Below are positions 1,429-32,207 of a stretch of DNA of 32,207 nucleotides, one piece after another. The first letter of the stretch is position 1. Every line of letters begins with the position of its first letter. Origin of the DNA: a virus; the IMG/VR virus record IMGVR_UViG_3300030382_000838, positions 1 to 32,207 of that record; one strand, 5' to 3'. The position numbers and the translations under genes were made by a program. The notes beneath the pieces are model-generated. The model saw only the letters and a program-made list of their open reading frames with translations, did not search any database and was not told the DNA's origin.

Positions 1429-1567
1429 TGTGAATTGCAATCTGCCTTTCAATCTTGTCCATACGCTTGCGCATTTGTCTAACATCATGTTCAATTTCTT
1501 CCTGCCTATGTAGCACCAGTTTCTTGTGCTCTGTCCAACCGTTGCCTGTGTCATTCCTACCTGTCAT
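1340..1567 (-). CDS. XhlA-like holin-associated membrane protein
   Basis: The 75-aa product has a charged, heptad-like helical N-terminal part (about residues 13-47, with QEEIEHDVRQMRKRMDKIE) and a C-terminal hydrophobic helix (about 53-74) ending in a short basic tail. This is the layout of the XhlA/haemolysin family of phage holin partners: cytoplasmic coiled coil, then one membrane anchor. The start overlaps the resolvase stop by 11 nt. The overlapping lipoprotein gene recalls the nested Rz/Rz1 spanin arrangement, but the anchor is at the wrong end for Rz. No endolysin is recognisable nearby. Confidence 0.65.
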   Translation of the reverse strand: MTGRNDTGNGWTEHKKLVLHRQEEIEHDVRQMRKRMDKIERQIAIHNAQSRMVTCVVGAIAGLVPVVVAILLGRM

Positions 1568-1913
1568 TAACGCCTGCTTCCTGTTTCATTATCGTGTCAA
1601 CAACTGCTGTGCAAAATCCTTTCAGGTCTGATGCCCGAACAGTTATCAGAATGTCCTGTCTGTTCTTTTTTGAAACAACATAGGGGATTGCATCACCACA
1701 ATCTGCAACTGCCTGTGCCATTGCTTTAAGAAGGTTCAGCGATTCCGTCCACTTGCATTCAGGGTGTGTGTTGGGGAATCCACCAACTACATCTGCGTTA
1801 CCTGCCAAGCCACAGTATTGCTGACCACGCCTTGCATTCAATCCAAAGTTATCCTGCAACCAATGTGCATATTCAAGTTCACCGCGTTTTCCTTTTGCCC
1901 TTGAGTTCGTCAT
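1557..1913 (-). CDS. PDDEXK nuclease, Holliday-junction-resolvase-like
   Basis: The 118-aa protein has the order expected for a small Hjc-like PDDEXK nuclease. KGKRGELE near the N-terminus supplies E12 or E14, then an aromatic/basic stretch, A-D41-V-V-G, then P-E52-C-K54 as the E-x-K pair, followed by a helix with LLKAMAQA. The C-terminal half has IPYVVSKKNRQDILITVR, which fits the later strands of the fold. Such enzymes resolve branched DNA before packaging. The start ATG lies 35 nt inside the sigma-like gene and has only a weak ribosome site. The nuclease fold is fairly sure; the junction-resolving role is inferred. Confidence 0.7.
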   Translation of the reverse strand: MTNSRAKGKRGELEYAHWLQDNFGLNARRGQQYCGLAGNADVVGGFPNTHPECKWTESLNLLKAMAQAVADCGDAIPYVVSKKNRQDILITVRASDLKGFCTAVVDTIMKQEAGVNDR

Positions 1914-4861: not shown

Positions 4862-5335
4862 TCAGAACGGCACATTGTCATCCGTGAAAGATGGCGTTTC
4901 GTCCGTTGCTACTATTCCACATTTCAGTGTACCAGAGTTCGTTGCTTGCGTGGGAGTCGTGGAAGATAAACCTTCCAAGTACGCAACCACTTCATTCTTT
5001 TCACTGTACTTGTCAGTCGCAGGGCGAACTTTCAACTTCACCGTCATTCGCTTACCAACCAACAACTGCTCGTCAATTTTTCCCTCGTTGAAGTCCATGC
5101 CACAACATCGGCAAATTGATTTCAACTTCCACAAGGAACTAGGATTGACGACATAATCGAACACCCGAACTGCGTTGCCATCCGTGGCGTGGCAATTCAT
5201 TTGCAATTCAATCATGGGATTGCCAGACGATTTCGATACCTTGTTTTCTGCGGTCATGATCTCCGCTTCGTACTCTCCTGCGGGTAGGCAGATAAAAGTT
5301 TTATCTTCCGCTTCTTTGGGGTTAAACTCAAACAT
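4862..5335 (-). CDS. DUF669-like single-stranded DNA-binding protein
   Basis: The 157-aa protein has FNPKEAED, then CLPAGEYEAEIMTAE, SKSSGNPMIELQM and later LVGKRMTVKLKVR, the pattern of phage DUF669 proteins, which have an OB-like fold and accompany Sak4-type recombinases. A Cys pair (CRCCG) lies near the middle. The tail after about residue 125 is Ser/Thr-rich and ends DDNVPF, like the acidic tip of SSB proteins that docks partner enzymes. I chose ATG 5335 because GGAGG lies 5 nt upstream and it overlaps the Sak4 stop by 8 nt. Single-strand binding during recombination and replication is the likely role. Confidence 0.72.
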   Translation of the reverse strand: MFEFNPKEAEDKTFICLPAGEYEAEIMTAENKVSKSSGNPMIELQMNCHATDGNAVRVFDYVVNPSSLWKLKSICRCCGMDFNEGKIDEQLLVGKRMTVKLKVRPATDKYSEKNEVVAYLEGLSSTTPTQATNSGTLKCGIVATDETPSFTDDNVPF

Positions 5336-6176
5336 GAAGTCCTCCAATTGCTTTCGTAAAATGTGCAACCATCTTGGTTGCTTGTTCAGTGGTTAGATCG
5401 GCAAGTGTATCAACACCCGCCTTGCTCAAACATTTGCTGACAAACTCATTGCCATCGGTCATCATGTTTGTAAGCGTTTCAATTTCCTTCACCTGTGAAG
5501 GCGTGGCAACCTTGACAACCGTTGCACTTCTTTCCATCTCTTTTAAGTCGTAACGCTCGGCAAGTGCTTCGCGTGTCCATTCAAAAGTTTCACCATCTGG
5601 GAATGTTTCAATGCGTGTTTTCTTAACACAAGCGTATCGCTGCGTTGGTGAACCACGCCGCAATTCCAATACCAGATCAAAGATATAATCCAACTTTTTC
5701 CAACCGTCAAATGTTACCGATAGGATTTTCATATCGTCACCGTACACAGGTTTAGAATGTGCGGTGATTACGATGTTCATATCCAACCCCATCATCAGGT
5801 TCACAAGCCTTCTCATATCTTTGTTGGCTTCGCCGTAATGCCTACCGTACTCCGCGCCAACTTTCGCCTCTGCCTTTTCTAGCAGATCGAAGTAGAACGG
5901 TGTAAGTGAATCGAACACCAAAGTTTTGAAGTCATGCTTCTCACTTCGTAGCGTTCGGATTTCTTCAATGATCTCATCGCTGTCGATGGATTGAAACACT
6001 GAACCACCAACACTATCAATCAAGTCGGCGTAGTTATCCGTACCGCGTTCCGTGTCAATAATGTACGGGCAGGGCATTTGACAAGCGGCGGTTGTCTTGC
6101 CCACTCCTGCTTCGCTGTACATGAATAATTTGAGCCGCTTATCCTTTTGTTGCGGCTTCTTTCCTTTTAGTGCCAT
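5328..6176 (-). CDS. Sak4-like RecA-fold ATPase / recombinase
   Basis: The 282-aa protein has a Walker A loop SEAGVGKTT (21-29), an early IIDTERG motif and a Walker B strand TLVFDS (85-90, D89), followed by ITAHSKPV near 150. This is the Sak4 class of phage single-strand annealing or RecA-like proteins (ATPase domain plus short C-terminal helical part, usually 220-300 aa). It probably drives homologous recombination with the SSB-like protein encoded just after it. The start at 6176 has a perfect AAAGGAGGT site; the in-frame codon at 6212 has no such support. Confidence 0.85.
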   Translation of the reverse strand: MALKGKKPQQKDKRLKLFMYSEAGVGKTTAACQMPCPYIIDTERGTDNYADLIDSVGGSVFQSIDSDEIIEEIRTLRSEKHDFKTLVFDSLTPFYFDLLEKAEAKVGAEYGRHYGEANKDMRRLVNLMMGLDMNIVITAHSKPVYGDDMKILSVTFDGWKKLDYIFDLVLELRRGSPTQRYACVKKTRIETFPDGETFEWTREALAERYDLKEMERSATVVKVATPSQVKEIETLTNMMTDGNEFVSKCLSKAGVDTLADLTTEQATKMVAHFTKAIGGLHV

Positions 6177-6256
6177 ATAGCACCTCCTTTGTTGTGGTTG
6201 CAGCACCGACAATCGTTGCCGTACTTTTTATATGCTGCAATCCTTTCGTGGTTCAT
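6167..6256 (-). CDS. Possible 29-aa Cys-rich leader peptide before the Sak4-like gene
   Basis: ATG 6256 overlaps the preceding stop by one base (TAATG) and the frame ends at TAA 6167-6169, just inside the Sak4-like gene. The peptide has a basic N-terminus and a CRCCNH cluster near its middle. It has no ribosome site of its own, so it would depend on coupling; its last codons lie over the strong Sak4 ribosome site. It may be a real mini-gene, a leader that tunes Sak4 translation, or chance. Confidence 0.4.
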   Translation of the reverse strand: MNHERIAAYKKYGNDCRCCNHNKGGAIWH

Positions 6257-27484: not shown

Positions 27485-29104
27485 CTAAAGAATCTCCATG
27501 TCCTGTTGTTCATACACGCTTTCTGTTTCTTCAGCAGTAACATTTGATCTACCCATTCCCATTACTGTTGCAACGAGTCCATCTATTTTTTCGGATGACC
27601 TGTGTTTGTTTAATTTAATATTTCCTGCTGCATCTTCTTGGCACGCCACAACGGTGGCGTTAAATCTTAATACTGGATGACCACCATGCCGTAAACGCTT
27701 ACCCATAATCATGGCTTCCATGTGCTTGCAAGCAGGTGACATTGATCTATAACCTTGACCGAAGAAGCCAACATTCAATCCATCCTGTTCAAGTTGCACT
27801 GCCAACTGTGTTGCGTTCCATCTGTCTAACACTACTTCTCTAATGTTATAGTGGATATGCAAGTCCTGTATCTTCTTTCTAATGAATGCGTAGTCCACAA
27901 CGTCACCTTCCGTTGCAATAAGAAATCCATCATCACGCCACTGGATGTAAGGCACGCCATCATCATGTTGCCTTCTTGCAATGTTTTCATTAGGAACAAA
28001 GAAGAAGGGCAACAGATCAAAGCCATCACCTTCTTCTTCAGTGCGTGGAAACACAAGCACCAGTGCGGTCATATCGAGTGTTGAAGAAAGATCAAGCCCT
28101 GCATAGCAAACACGACCTTTCAGTTCTTCTTCACTGTACGGTTGCTCACATGAGTCCCACGCTTGCATGTCAATCCACCTATTTAATTGTTCCGTTGGTT
28201 GGTTCAAATACAAACGCCTGAAAGCGTTTTGGTAACTTGGAAGTGCCTTGGCTTTGGTGCACTCTTGTTCGTAAAACTCTAATGAAACAGTTGTACCCAA
28301 CGATGGATTACAGCGTGCCCAAACTTCAGGGTCATCCCATTTGTCATCTTTCTTTGCTGCCCATATTGCAGGCATGAATGATGAATCAACCACCGTGCCA
28401 TCTTGCACCTTGCGTGCGTAGTTGTGCAGGTCTAACCAAAGCGTAGGTTCTGCTGTGCCTGCTGTTGTGATGGATATATTTAACGGCTGCTTTCTTGCTC
28501 CCTGACTTGTTAGAAGTGCCTCGTATAATTCGCGTGCATCGGGCTTTGTCCATACGTGCAACTCATCCGCTATAACAGCCGAAGCATTCAAGCCGTGTGC
28601 AGTTCTTGAATCTGATGCGAGTGCCTTCATCGTTGAACCTGTGCTTGGTACAACAATTGCATTTCGATAAATCTTGCAATGCTTAGATAGATATTCGTCT
28701 GCTTCTACAAACCTTTTAGCAATGCCAAATACAATACTTGCTTGGTCACGGTCTGCTGCTGCTGTGTAAACTTCTGCACCTTCTTCGTCGTCACTTGTCA
28801 AACACATCAATGCAAGCCCCGCAGCCAAACTGCTTTTTCCCGCTTTTCTCGGAAGTTCAATCAGGCTTGAACGGAAACGTCTTGTTGAATCTGGACGAAT
28901 CCAACCAAACATATTTGCCACAATTGATATTTGCCAATCAGATAACACAAAACTTTCACCTGCCCATTTTCCCTTGTGGTGTTTCAAAAACAAAGGAAAG
29001 AAATTAACAGCATCTCTCGCCTTTTCTGCTTCAAAAGTACAATCCAAACTTTGTTCATTTGGGTCATAGTCAGGAAGAAGTAAACTGATTTCCTTGTCTG
29101 TCAT
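27485..29104 (-). CDS. terL: Terminase large subunit
   Basis: The 539-aa protein has a Walker A variant PRKAGKSS (85-92), a Walker B VIADE (177-181), coupling motif SITTAGTAE (211-219) and a nuclease domain starting GLDLSSTLDMTALVL (336-350, D338), which fits the Terminase_1 family of HK97-like phages. It cuts and pumps DNA into the prohead using ATP. It overlaps the small subunit by ATGA and lies directly against the portal gene, the classic packaging order. No intein or frame break is seen. Confidence 0.95.
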   Translation of the reverse strand: MTDKEISLLLPDYDPNEQSLDCTFEAEKARDAVNFFPLFLKHHKGKWAGESFVLSDWQISIVANMFGWIRPDSTRRFRSSLIELPRKAGKSSLAAGLALMCLTSDDEEGAEVYTAAADRDQASIVFGIAKRFVEADEYLSKHCKIYRNAIVVPSTGSTMKALASDSRTAHGLNASAVIADELHVWTKPDARELYEALLTSQGARKQPLNISITTAGTAEPTLWLDLHNYARKVQDGTVVDSSFMPAIWAAKKDDKWDDPEVWARCNPSLGTTVSLEFYEQECTKAKALPSYQNAFRRLYLNQPTEQLNRWIDMQAWDSCEQPYSEEELKGRVCYAGLDLSSTLDMTALVLVFPRTEEEGDGFDLLPFFFVPNENIARRQHDDGVPYIQWRDDGFLIATEGDVVDYAFIRKKIQDLHIHYNIREVVLDRWNATQLAVQLEQDGLNVGFFGQGYRSMSPACKHMEAMIMGKRLRHGGHPVLRFNATVVACQEDAAGNIKLNKHRSSEKIDGLVATVMGMGRSNVTAEETESVYEQQDMEIL

Positions 29105-29586
29105 CCACCAAGATACTTCATACGTTCATCTTGCTGCTTGCTTTGCTTGTCATCCGTTGTTTGTACTCGGCTGCGTGCTGATGGTGTTAAACCAAACTCG
29201 CACAACAAATCCTTCAACGCCTTTGCAGAGTTCCTAGCAATTGAAACGTAGGGTGACTGTTGCAGGTATTTAACTTCCTTGCCATCTTGCGTTTTGATTG
29301 GGTACACATCACCATGCTTCTTAATCATGTCATCTGCCCTTCGCCACGTTGCGTATGTTTCTGCAAGCAAATACAACGCAATGCCATCCGCAACTGTCAG
29401 TACCTTCATGTTTTCAAGCAAGGGTACAAGTTGCTCCCAACAATCCTTTGCCATTCCATCAAGACCTGTTGGCATTGGTGGTGGGATCGCTTCTGGTTGT
29501 GGTTCGTTTTTATTTATTTCGCCACGCCAACTGCCACGCAATTTCAGCACGTTTGTTGGTGTTGGTTTAGTTCCACGTCTACCCAT
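29101..29586 (-). CDS. terS: Terminase small subunit (P27 family)
   Basis: The 161-aa protein begins GRRGTKPTPTNVLKLRGSWRG, the hallmark of the P27 small terminase family, followed by PMPTGLDGMAKDCWEQLVPLLENM, LYLLAETYATWRRADD and a C-terminal LLCEFGLTPSARSRV. It recognises phage DNA to start packaging. The start overlaps the third methyltransferase stop by the same 8 nt (ATGGGTAG) used at the methyltransferase junctions, so modification and packaging genes are translated together. Confidence 0.92.
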   Translation of the reverse strand: MGRRGTKPTPTNVLKLRGSWRGEINKNEPQPEAIPPPMPTGLDGMAKDCWEQLVPLLENMKVLTVADGIALYLLAETYATWRRADDMIKKHGDVYPIKTQDGKEVKYLQQSPYVSIARNSAKALKDLLCEFGLTPSARSRVQTTDDKQSKQQDERMKYLGG

Positions 29587-30280
29587 CAGTCACCGCCTTT
29601 CCACCTGTTAAGTTCTCCCATCGCTTCACAACCACATCACAATACAACGGGTCAATCTCCATGCCGTAACATTTGCGGTTCAACTGTTCGCAAGCGATGA
29701 GAGTTGAGCCAGAACCAAGGAACAAGTCAAGTACCGTCTTTGCGGTGTGATTTGATATGGCACGAACAGCAAGTGCAACGGGTTTTTGCGTTGGATGGAA
29801 TGTGTTTTGTGAATCCCTCGGCATTTCCCACATTGTCGATTCGGTAGATTTTCCACACCACCGCAGGGTGCATCCTTTGGGCTTCCAATACAACAACGGT
29901 TCGTGGCGTTGTTTGTACTGAGCATTCAGCGCAGCGTATGTTGCATTTGTCTTGTGCCAAATAATACACGAATGTATTTGTCCAATCGCTTCAACCGCTT
30001 CAAGGAAAGCCAAAGATTTTTCAACCGTAAACCATGTGTAGCAAGCACCATCGACATTTGCTGCGATGATGGGTATTGCTCTTGTGTAGATTTCTGTTGA
30101 ATGGTCATTCTTCAACTTTTTACGCTTGCCGAATGTTCCGCCTTCATAGTTCACCCCATAAGGCGGGTCGGTAAAGCACATATCTGCTTTCTCTCCATCC
30201 ATCAATCGTTCCACATCCGCTTCACTTGTTGAGTCACCACAAAGCAAACGATGTTTTGATTTCAGTTTCAATTCACCCAT
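29579..30280 (-). CDS. DNA methyltransferase paralogue C (N6/N4, beta-type order)
   Basis: The 233-aa protein has DPPY (38-41) near the N-terminus and the AdoMet motif FLGSG (187-191) near the C-terminus, the beta-class order of amino-methyltransferases, with HPTQKP at 162-167. N- and C-terminal segments (LKLKSKHRLLCGDSTSE; LIACEQLNRKCYGMEIDPLY) match the other two copies. The centre differs: it carries IIWHKTNATYAALNAQYKQRHEPLLYW, a pattern of a different methyltransferase lineage. The ATG at 30280 overlaps the previous stop by 8 nt, and the longer frame to 30298 is not needed. It probably methylates a different site from A and B. Confidence 0.87.
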   Translation of the reverse strand: MGELKLKSKHRLLCGDSTSEADVERLMDGEKADMCFTDPPYGVNYEGGTFGKRKKLKNDHSTEIYTRAIPIIAANVDGACYTWFTVEKSLAFLEAVEAIGQIHSCIIWHKTNATYAALNAQYKQRHEPLLYWKPKGCTLRWCGKSTESTMWEMPRDSQNTFHPTQKPVALAVRAISNHTAKTVLDLFLGSGSTLIACEQLNRKCYGMEIDPLYCDVVVKRWENLTGGKAVTDG

Positions 30281-30941
30281 TGCACACCGCCTTCTCACCT
30301 GTAAGATTTTCCCAACGCTTGATAATCACATCACAATACAAAGGGTCAATCTCCATGCCGTAGCATTTGCGGTTGAGTTGTTCGCAAGCGATGAGAGTTG
30401 TTCCGCTTCCCAAGAATGGGTCAATACAACTTTCAAAAGCATAATCCTTAAAAATATCGACACAAAGTTTGATGGGCTTCTGTGTTGGATGAACCCTCTT
30501 TTTACTTTCGCCTTCTCTAATCATTCCATTCCATGTGCAAGAATATTTTTTGACCGCAACCCCATCAAATGAAGTCCAAGCAAGTTCGCAATCTGAAAAT
30601 GTTGTGCCTTCTGGTCTGTTTTTATCCCAAACAAACCAACGACCTTTTGGAAGTTTGCCTGAAAAATAGTTTGCACCAAAAACAATCAAATCTTCTGCCA
30701 TATTGAATAAATGGGTTGGGTCATATTCCTTGTCATCATTTATCACTTTCCTATACTCTTGATTCTTTGCCAATACGCTTCCACCGATTTTCCCGCTTTG
30801 TCCAACAACATCAATTCCGTATGGCGGGTCAGTGAACACCATGTCTGCCTTCTCCCCATCCATCAATCGTGCGACATCATCTTCACTCGTTGAATCGCCA
30901 CAGAGCAAACGATGTTTGGATTTCAATTTCAATTTACCCAT
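30273..30941 (-). CDS. DNA methyltransferase paralogue B (N6/N4, beta-type order)
   Basis: The 222-aa protein has DPPY (38-41), a central target-recognition region with ANYFSGKLPKGRWFVWDKN and CELAWTSFDG, HPTQKP (151-156) and FLGSG (176-180). The ends are almost identical to copies A and C. The centre is closest to copy A (both share G-A-N-Y-x...LP...VWDKN...CELAWT), so A and B are sister copies. The ATG at 30941 overlaps copy A by the 8-nt ATGGGTAA. Methylation would protect phage DNA from host restriction, or mark it. Confidence 0.9.
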   Translation of the reverse strand: MGKLKLKSKHRLLCGDSTSEDDVARLMDGEKADMVFTDPPYGIDVVGQSGKIGGSVLAKNQEYRKVINDDKEYDPTHLFNMAEDLIVFGANYFSGKLPKGRWFVWDKNRPEGTTFSDCELAWTSFDGVAVKKYSCTWNGMIREGESKKRVHPTQKPIKLCVDIFKDYAFESCIDPFLGSGTTLIACEQLNRKCYGMEIDPLYCDVIIKRWENLTGEKAVCNG

Positions 30942-31566
30942 TGCACACCGCCTTTCCACCTGTTAAGTTCTCCCATCGCTTCACAATCACATCACAATAC
31001 AAAGGGTCAATCTCCATGCCGTAACACTTGCGGTTGAGTTGTTCGCAAGCAATAAGCGTTGCACCGCTTCCGAGGAACAAGTCGAGCACTGTCTTTGCAT
31101 CAATCTTTTCAATGCACCAACACAGCAACTGTATCGGCTTCTGCGTAGGATGAACCCTGTTCGTCTTTTCGCTTGCTTGCGTGAATTGCCTCGTCACGCC
31201 CTTAAGATTTGTCCACGCAAGTTCACAGTCCATCTGGTCACTCCCGCCATTGTTCTTATCCCAAACCAACCAACAGGATTGATTCGGCAATTCGTTTGCA
31301 TAGTAATTCGCACCCCACCAGATTTGCGGAACTTCTTTGTCAATCAAATTGAATGACTTGACCGCAGCATTGATTGAATCATCACCCGCAACATCACGAT
31401 ACTTTTCCTTGAGTACGCCAGAGTTCTTGACAGCATCCATTCCATAAGGCGGGTCAGTCACAACGGATTCAATCTTCCCACCATCCATCAAACTTGCAAC
31501 ATCATCTTCACTTGTCGAATCACCACACAGCAAGCGGTGTCTGGATTTCAATTTCAGTTTACCCAC
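30934..31566 (-). CDS. DNA methyltransferase paralogue A (N6/N4, beta-type order)
   Basis: The 210-aa protein has CGDSTSEDD (14-22), DPPY (38-41), a central WWGANYYANELP...VWDKNN...CELAWTN, HPTQKP (139-144) and FLGSG (164-168). It starts at GTG within GTGGGTAA, an 8-nt overlap with the ParB-like gene. In most relatives the HRLLCGDST start is fused to a ParB N-domain in one protein; here the two are separate genes with a zinc-ribbon-like end on the first. Its shared ends with copies B and C suggest gene duplication followed by exchange of centres. Confidence 0.9.
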   Translation of the reverse strand: MGKLKLKSRHRLLCGDSTSEDDVASLMDGGKIESVVTDPPYGMDAVKNSGVLKEKYRDVAGDDSINAAVKSFNLIDKEVPQIWWGANYYANELPNQSCWLVWDKNNGGSDQMDCELAWTNLKGVTRQFTQASEKTNRVHPTQKPIQLLCWCIEKIDAKTVLDLFLGSGATLIACEQLNRKCYGMEIDPLYCDVIVKRWENLTGGKAVCNG

Positions 31567-32116
31567 AGGGACAATCCTTCATCTTCTTGCCTTCATCATA
31601 ATCGTATATCTTCCCGCAGTCATCACATTCATAATACGCACCAAGCAACCACAAGTCGCCAACTTGCGTAATGGCTTCCTCTGGTACTTCTGGCACTTCA
31701 TCTTCTTCGATGTCACCCGATGCGTTTGAAATAAAATCATCAATTTCTTTGTCAGTAAATCCAATGGAATCCATATCAAAGCCCTTGGCTGTCAAGTCTA
31801 ATAATGTTTTGGAAAGTGCATCATCATCCCACGCAGCAAGTTCAGCCGTGCGATTGTCTGCAATGGCAAAGCCCGATTGCTTCACTTCGTCCAACGTGGT
31901 AACAACCACATCTATTTCATCCCATCCTAAACTGGTTGCAGCAAGCAGCGTTCCATTCCCCGCAATAACCTTGTTATCTTTGGTGATGACAATTGGTTTC
32001 TGCTGCCCAAACTCTTGCAGTGATTTTTCAATTGCTTGCAGGTTGCGTGTGTCGTGCGACCTTGCATTATTTTCATCTTCAAGAAGTTCCGCAACCTTGC
32101 GTTTTGTAATTTTCAT
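31559..32116 (-). CDS. ParB-like N-domain protein with zinc-ribbon-like tail
   Basis: The 185-aa protein has a ParB/sulfiredoxin-type domain: NNARSHDTRNLQAIEKSLQE, then KPIVITKDNKVIAGNGTLLA and ALGW-like spacing, with DNRTAELAAWDDDAL and a DIDxIGFTDKEIDDF-like region. This matches the N-terminal half of ParB-methyltransferase fusion proteins. It ends GDLWLLGAYYECDDCGKIY...KDCPCG, a CxxC...CxC zinc-ribbon-like tail, at the point where relatives run on into HRLLCGDST. AAGGA lies 9 nt before the ATG. It may guide the three methyltransferases on DNA. No nuclease motif is seen. Confidence 0.78.
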   Translation of the reverse strand: MKITKRKVAELLEDENNARSHDTRNLQAIEKSLQEFGQQKPIVITKDNKVIAGNGTLLAATSLGWDEIDVVVTTLDEVKQSGFAIADNRTAELAAWDDDALSKTLLDLTAKGFDMDSIGFTDKEIDDFISNASGDIEEDEVPEVPEEAITQVGDLWLLGAYYECDDCGKIYDYDEGKKMKDCPCG

Positions 32117-32207
32117 AAATCAAAATCCTTTTTGTTTAAGACTATCAGAGCATCGTCATCACAGGGCGACCCCCTAGACTAAAAGTCGTGAAAAAAAGTG
32201 CTTCCCA
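32117..32207 (-). other. Leader upstream of the ParB-like gene
   Basis: This 91-bp stretch holds a ribosome site and a short GACT/AGTC stem but no clear sigma70 promoter. If the contig is circular it joins the left-end terminator and repeats. A late promoter of a type read by the sigma-like factor would be expected here, but I cannot point to one. Confidence 0.35.

Follow-up and report, generated by a model that had tools for sequence, protein, structure and literature searches.

A split ParB-methyltransferase locus with tandem methyltransferase genes ahead of the terminase of an uncultured phage

Why would a working ParB-methyltransferase fusion enzyme be split, and why would one of the parts then be present three times? 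The question is raised by an uncultured phage, IMG/VR virus record IMGVR_UViG_3300030382_000838, which was analysed over its full length of 32,207 bp (hereafter the window). Its minus strand encodes, 5' to 3', a ParB-like protein, three methyltransferases (MTases) named C, B and A in the order of transcription, the terminase small subunit (TerS) and the terminase large subunit (TerL). An original prediction from the sequence had placed the ParB-like gene, three separate catalytic genes and TerS at 29101-32116, and gene calls on this strand bore out both content and coordinates (Table 1). On balance, the locus is probably a split-fusion modification operon, in which a ParB-like scaffold with a ribbon joint would serve interchangeable MTases with recombining centres, most likely against host restriction.

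The ParB-like gene aligns to positions 33-200 of the fused family phrog_498 and each of the MTases A, B and C to positions 200-430, therefore a usually fused gene is broken here, as had been proposed. The domain order of phrog_498 (ParB, then a beta-class MTase) is kept and its linker motifs GDLWxLGxHRLLCGD are divided between two genes; instead of one polypeptide with one MTase, two frames with an overlap of 8 nucleotides (nt) and three MTases were found. Where the linker of the fused form reads GDLWLLG-EHRLLCGD, the window MTases begin with (V/M)G(K/E)LKLKS(K/R)HRLLCGD. Their PF01555 scores are 63-86 bits (gathering cut-off 26.7) and DPPY (motif IV) ahead of FLGSG (motif I) as well as HPTQKP (motif X) are intact in all three, which are predicted to be beta-class N6/N4 DNA MTases. 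Solved relatives include M1.HpyAVI (5hfj, 232 aa), M.BceJIV, CcrM and RsrI. Known fused phage ParB-MTases (phrog_498; BCE_0392, P8625 gp03) share the two domains in the same order (ParB-CTPase fold and PF01555) and the linker motifs GDLWLLG and HRLLCGD, and are often situated directly upstream of the terminase. The locus differs from them by having two polypeptides, a ribbon tail added to ParB, a restart motif for each MTase and, across the split form, one to three MTases per ParB.

The ParB-like protein ends with GDLWLLGAYYECDDCGKIYDYDEGKKMKDCPCG. This tail holds the zinc-ribbon-like motif C-x2-C...C-x-C which had been anticipated, i.e. two cysteine knuckles predicted by motif to form a zinc ribbon. 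Cys 164, 167 and 182 are invariant among 26 full-ribbon ParB proteins and Cys 184 is retained in most. In 50,697 GenBank phage records, no match to the ribbon tail was obtained at the sensitivity used. Between distant ParB genes, 79 of 96 four-fold sites (82%) are identical in the last 41 codons compared to 128 of 335 (38%) in the body (totals summed over ParB pairs, L002-L003 left out; relatives' loci are numbered with a leading L). Since the identity in the tail is far above that of the body, the tail itself, judged by these sites, is exchanged between phages.

The ParB part scores 23 bits with Pfam ParB_N (PF02195), slightly under the cut-off of 26.3, and its AlphaFold2 (AF2) model has the ParB-CTPase fold (match to ParB-CTPase 7bnk, Foldseek E 5e-8). 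The arginine of the P-motif is replaced, residues 52-57 being AGNGTL compared to AGHGR or GHTR in others. As this arginine is required for nucleotide binding in other ParB-fold proteins (PMC12704722), a CTP-clamp mode is unsupported for the window protein. The substitution is a feature of this ParB clade, and the usual nucleotide binding is doubtful. Among named relatives, the one nearest to the ParB part is the fused enzyme gp03 of Verrucomicrobia phage P8625, and the split form occurs in three copies in a Phycisphaerae metagenome-assembled genome (MAG); both are a hint, though no proof, of planctomycete or verrucomicrobial hosts. The copies in this MAG (JAAYCR01; L211, L212 and L213) are three similar, distinct ParB-ribbon loci with two MTases each on three contigs; the first MTase has SPPY and the second DPPY, possibly an N4C and N6A pair.

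Splitting is linked to multiplicity. Among the 35 distinct split-ribbon loci that extend far enough downstream, 21 have tandem MTases (two in 20 loci and three in the window), compared to none of 112 fused loci when a second such MTase directly downstream was counted (Fisher, 2e-16). Likewise, no open reading frame (ORF) with two MTase domains was found. A missing link in the form of a fused ParB-MTase that contains the ribbon internally was rejected (0 of 115 fused ORFs). Furthermore, six loci (L229, L230, L235, L236, L240 and L241) have half-ribbon ParB tails with a single CxxC. An N-terminal cysteine knuckle occurs in 11 of 11 MTases downstream of a half-ribbon ParB and in 0 of 44 downstream of a full-ribbon ParB; in half-ribbon phages, each MTase has the knuckle which the ParB tail lacks. 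The idea of a shared subunit gains indirect support because ribbon and knuckle co-vary and tandem MTases are restricted to the split form. Read most simply, these sequences suggest one ribbon-centred joint to which the ParB tail and the N-terminus of the MTase both contribute. A more specific proposal is tentative and, in our estimate, falls somewhat short of an even chance: an inter-protein zinc ribbon, of which the ParB scaffold would give half or all together with a beta strand, each interchangeable catalytic subunit would complete it, and the phage would thus stock several exchangeable specificities.

The same observations bear on ordinary mosaicism, according to which three independent orphan MTases stand beside an unrelated ParB-like nuclease, brought together only by a tolerant slot and sharing no subunit. 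We regard this as rather unlikely. Complete co-variation of half and full ribbons with the MTase knuckles, confinement of tandem copies to the split ribbon form, and a GDLWLLG strand that ParB conserves despite an MTase on a separate chain all speak against it. It would agree, however, with the size of the MTases, which are big enough for self-sufficiency, with L024, in which an MTase close to A has no adjacent ParB, with flexible MTases being common in phages according to the available part of one study (PMC7468147), and with the acceptance of C5-MTase, TET-like and glycosyltransferase genes by the slot, as described below.

For modelling of the joint, ParB and MTase C were joined as a single chain with GGGT read as one step. 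In the resulting AF2 model, the tail region has a predicted local distance difference test (pLDDT) value > 90 and a long strand spans residues 155-164. When ParB was modelled by itself, this strand did not form and the pLDDT was 53-59 across residues 131-160. The GDLWLLG strand, the pLDDT of which rises from ~59 to > 90, and the ribbon appear to gain confidence with the MTase present, which agrees with a joint but is a biased comparison. Applying the code GGGT=G to other loci was rejected, as the frame breaks elsewhere; the code was kept only to join P0001 for modelling.

How could the catalytic half vary while the scaffold stays? Among A, B and C, DNA identity amounts to 80-86% in the first 99 nt and 79-87% in the last 141 nt, compared to 65-69% in the centres, and pairwise alignment agrees with the expectation that the ends are more alike than the centres. 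The centres of A, B and C are no more similar than any unrelated centre pair in the set. In beta-class enzymes, the target-recognition region is located between motif IV and motif I; here, the variable centre between DPPY and FLGSG would set the methylated sequence. Direct repeats of 136, 164 and 261 nt span the MTase ends and two of the joins. Around the exchanged parts of the locus, only one weak inverted pair of 22 nt (77%) was found. Invertible or phase-variable shuffling was rejected, given that the repeats are direct and no notable inverted repeat is present. Comparison with GenBank phages gave DNA matches of ~100 bp only.

A tree of 153 catalytic domains (fused and split rows) shows split genes scattered across the fused family: 16 changes of the split label are needed for 20 split rows, and starred branches force 13 of these changes. 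The nearest relatives are L024 (89%) and L025 for A, L126 and L125 for B, and the fused L099 and L100 for C. Copy C had been assigned to another lineage. It does differ, but all three nest in different sub-clades of the fused family and A is farthest from the other two. Exchange of centres is well supported by the sequences of relatives. The second, split MTase of L006 and the fused L206 have a common block of 638 bp with 100% identity and flanks of ~65%; the block starts 63 nt inside one end and halts 58 nt short of the other, with both borders in the conserved ends. L004 has TerS and TerL genes with 92% and 84-86% DNA identity to the window, respectively, and a single MTase with another centre, which is 94% identical to that of L002, whose terminase genes are unrelated. 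Thus, in relatives, centres move between phages while the ends stay. Centres and copy number both vary in relatives, as expected of an exchangeable cassette and not of fixed, vertically inherited single genes, and where versions with one to five copies had been envisaged, the slot was found to hold zero to three MTases. Exchange is probably aided by the annealing protein of Sak4 type; the Sak4-like protein and the RusA-like resolvase encoded in the window are candidate drivers of cassette shuffling between similar sequences.

The slot ahead of the terminase holds one, two or three MTases in relatives or, alternatively, a C5-MTase, a TET-like oxygenase or a TET-associated glycosyltransferase. 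L002, L003, L010 and L013 belong to one lineage, with 82-94% identity in the first 130 codons of ParB and 78-100% in the terminase genes, whereas the cargo comprises a ribbon tail with a beta-MTase (two different centres), a CPKCG tail with a C5-MTase, or another tail with a TET-associated glycosyltransferase. L008 belongs to the lineage of the window, with a TerS of 92% identity, but in place of the MTases it has a TET/JBP-like oxygenase together with a gene that had no Pfam match and is likely a glycosyltransferase. L007 (split) and L034 (fused) represent both forms within one terminase lineage. Several further arrangements were observed. L009 likewise has a TET/JBP-like oxygenase between the ParB-like gene and the terminase. 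At L010:678-2193 and L017:5974-7457, a ParB-like gene with a short CxxC tail (CPKCG and CKECG, respectively) is followed by a C5-cytosine MTase, another pairing of tail and cargo. At L013:2822-4239, a ParB-like gene of the L002 and L003 lineage with yet another tail precedes the TET-associated glycosyltransferase (PF20691). A second, unrelated N6/N4 MTase is located between TerS and TerL at L002:2303-3622.

Methylation would protect the phage DNA as the restriction enzymes of the host change, and relatives hold other modification enzymes in this slot. Such an anti-restriction role of the predicted MTases is plausible and is regarded as what the phage most likely gains from them, which accords with how prevalent MTases are among the flexible genes of cryoconite phages (PMC7468147). 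Alternatively, the marks set by the MTases might serve replication, packaging or transcription control of the phage, and the adjoining ParB-like and terminase genes would couple marking to packaging. The locus does adjoin TerS, and the prophage ParB-MTase BCE_0392 has been linked to DNA nicking with a suggested part in phage replication or packaging (PMC3459991; PMC5512222). However, the centres are exchanged rapidly and unrelated modification chemistries can take the place of the MTases, which suits an arms race more than a packaging signal that is conserved; marking is considered quite improbable.

All four joins had been described as RTGGGTAR. Each is indeed an 8-nt overlap, but only GTGGGTAA, ATGGGTAA and ATGGGTAG match this pattern, and the join of B to A is ATGGGTGA. 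The letters are the same because the repeated unit is homologous. Among relatives, 30 of 44 full-ribbon junctions overlap by 8 nt and the others by 14, 13 or 4 nt. Three further gene pairs within the window overlap by 8 nt as well, hence the special significance ascribed to this length was rejected; homology of the unit accounts for the letters. The overlap is read as ordinary translational coupling, which would have been carried along by homology. Programmed +1 frameshifting at the GGG-TAA joins, by which minor ParB-ribbon-MTase fusions would coexist with free forms, was also considered. With these overlaps, the following gene is in the +1 frame and a GGG.T slip site precedes the stop; the joined protein also folds well in the AF2 model. 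However, the same overlap links MTase A to the terminase, where a fusion is senseless, other split loci have overlaps of 4, 13 or 14 nt, and AAGGA is found 8 nt ahead of the GTG, as ordinary coupled re-initiation would have. Frameshifting is therefore judged highly improbable.

With regard to the origin of the split, an HNH homing endonuclease might have entered the ParB/MTase linker, split the gene and later been lost in most cases, with the tail and restart codon as scars and the halves reassembling. We consider this unlikely. An HNH gene does lie exactly between ParB-ribbon and MTase at L202:5602-6213 and L203:1925-2422, possibly as a relic of splitting, but these are only 2 of the 35 split-ribbon loci, the window has none, and the HNH gene may have entered an already split site. 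In the literature, homing endonucleases are commonly flexible phage genes (PMC7468147), and there are accounts of nuclease genes located at the boundaries of exchange as well as of mobile elements within split genes of phages. This origin would leave the function of the locus today unexplained and does not conflict with the split-fusion modification operon proposed above.

For this operon, the following course is probable. An ancestral fused ParB-MTase was split at its linker, and each MTase is now a separate, complete and translationally coupled cassette, so that the ParB-like scaffold and several MTases could be made from one coupled message. The ribbon tail would probably be the joint, at which one scaffold docks several catalytic subunits, either singly in turn or as a mixed population; dockable subunits would be those which keep the constant N-terminal and C-terminal ends. 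Homologous recombination in these conserved ends could swap centres and whole cassettes with fused and split relatives, and unequal crossing over could alter the number of MTase copies.

Several points weigh against this explanation. MTases of similar size can work and contact DNA without a partner (5hfj, M1.HpyAVI, 232 aa), and the earlier assignment of the ParB part as the DNA-contact subunit is unsupported. The N-terminal strand of the window MTases, VGKLKLKS, mimics the linker strand VGDLWLLG, and the ParB tail is possibly unneeded. Packing in the joined AF2 model is biased, since one chain was modelled and fused homologues were used. In both contingency tests, the loci are mutually related, and the fused and split sets originate from different queries. 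The three centres of the window itself have no close match and their exchange is deduced from relatives. Finally, the evidence is sequence data throughout, mostly metagenome assemblies, which in principle could be chimeric, but L005, from a different sample, has the same sequence as L006 over 5.8 kb.

All positions are listed in Table 1. Only 91 bp (32117-32207) remain upstream of the ParB gene, thus the operon promoter and any upstream partner fall outside the record.

Table 1. Features of the split ParB-methyltransferase locus and further genes in the window.
Feature	Position	Strand	Evidence or remark
ParB-like protein with C-terminal zinc-ribbon-like tail, 185 aa	31559..32116	-	phrog_620/phrog_498, E 1e-44 to 1e-45; AF2 and Foldseek
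GDLWLLG strand, retained from the linker of the fused protein	31640..31660	-	folded in MTase-joined AF2 model, unfolded in ParB-alone model
ParB tail coding AYYECDDCGKIYDYDEGKKMKDCPCG, C-x2-C...C-x-C ribbon-like motif	31562..31639	-	
AAGGA Shine-Dalgarno-like site within ParB tail codons, 8 nt ahead of MTase C GTG	31575..31579	-	putative, from sequence
8-nt overlap GTGGGTAA, ParB to MTase C	31559..31566	-	
MTase C, first after ParB, predicted beta-class N6/N4 DNA MTase, 210 aa, GTG start	30934..31566	-	PF01555, E 5e-17; DPPY, FLGSG intact
Conserved 136-nt N-end repeat of MTase C	31430..31565	-	other copies 30805-30940, 30144-30279
8-nt overlap ATGGGTAA, MTase C to MTase B	30934..30941	-	
MTase B, 222 aa	30273..30941	-	PF01555, E 5e-18
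8-nt overlap ATGGGTGA, MTase B to MTase A	30273..30280	-	departs from RTGGGTAR
MTase A, 233 aa	29579..30280	-	PF01555, E 4e-24
Conserved 164-nt C-end repeat of MTase A	29580..29743	-	other copies 30274-30437, 30935-31098
8-nt overlap ATGGGTAG, MTase A to TerS	29579..29586	-	
Terminase small subunit TerS, P27 family	29101..29586	-	downstream edge of the slot
Terminase large subunit TerL	27485..29104	-	
Sak4-like single-strand annealing protein	5328..6212	-	phrog_124, E 5e-25
RusA-like resolvase	1557-1913		

The proposed operon resembles Type I restriction-modification (HsdM/HsdS) and other systems with exchangeable recognition domains in that function is spread over subunits and recognition parts are exchanged by recombination. 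In the present locus, however, a ParB-like protein is the partner that stays constant, while the MTase, with its catalytic and recognition parts, is what is exchanged; no HsdS family was found among the Pfam, NCBIfam and PADLOC matches listed for the proteins, which in this respect are not Type I-like. Homing-endonuclease genes-in-pieces are split at a linker in a similar way, and HNH genes occupy the same site in the two relatives L202 and L203, but here the split is accompanied by multiplication and exchange of one half, and no endonuclease gene is present at the split in the window. In the flexible islands of cryoconite phages, as far as the available part of that study goes, orphan MTases lead the flexible genes in frequency, MTase alleles recombine in an otherwise stable genome with anti-restriction as the proposed role, and one variable region precedes the terminase and includes a ParB-domain protein (PMC7468147). 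Those are variable single genes, whereas the split ParB-ribbon with tandem MTases is the feature of the window.

Flexible phage MTases and ParB-MTase fusions are known already; the split, ribbon-joined, multi-enzyme form is new, as judged by these comparisons. If the proposed reading is true, it explains why a working fusion enzyme is split: one partner would come to serve several exchangeable MTases. The locus would provide a testable unit of scaffold, joint and cassette, possibly with a new kind of subunit docking via a shared zinc ribbon, and it may offer a modular route to MTases with new specificity. The slot ahead of the terminase would then be a natural record of the modification chemistries which phages trade at one fixed place.

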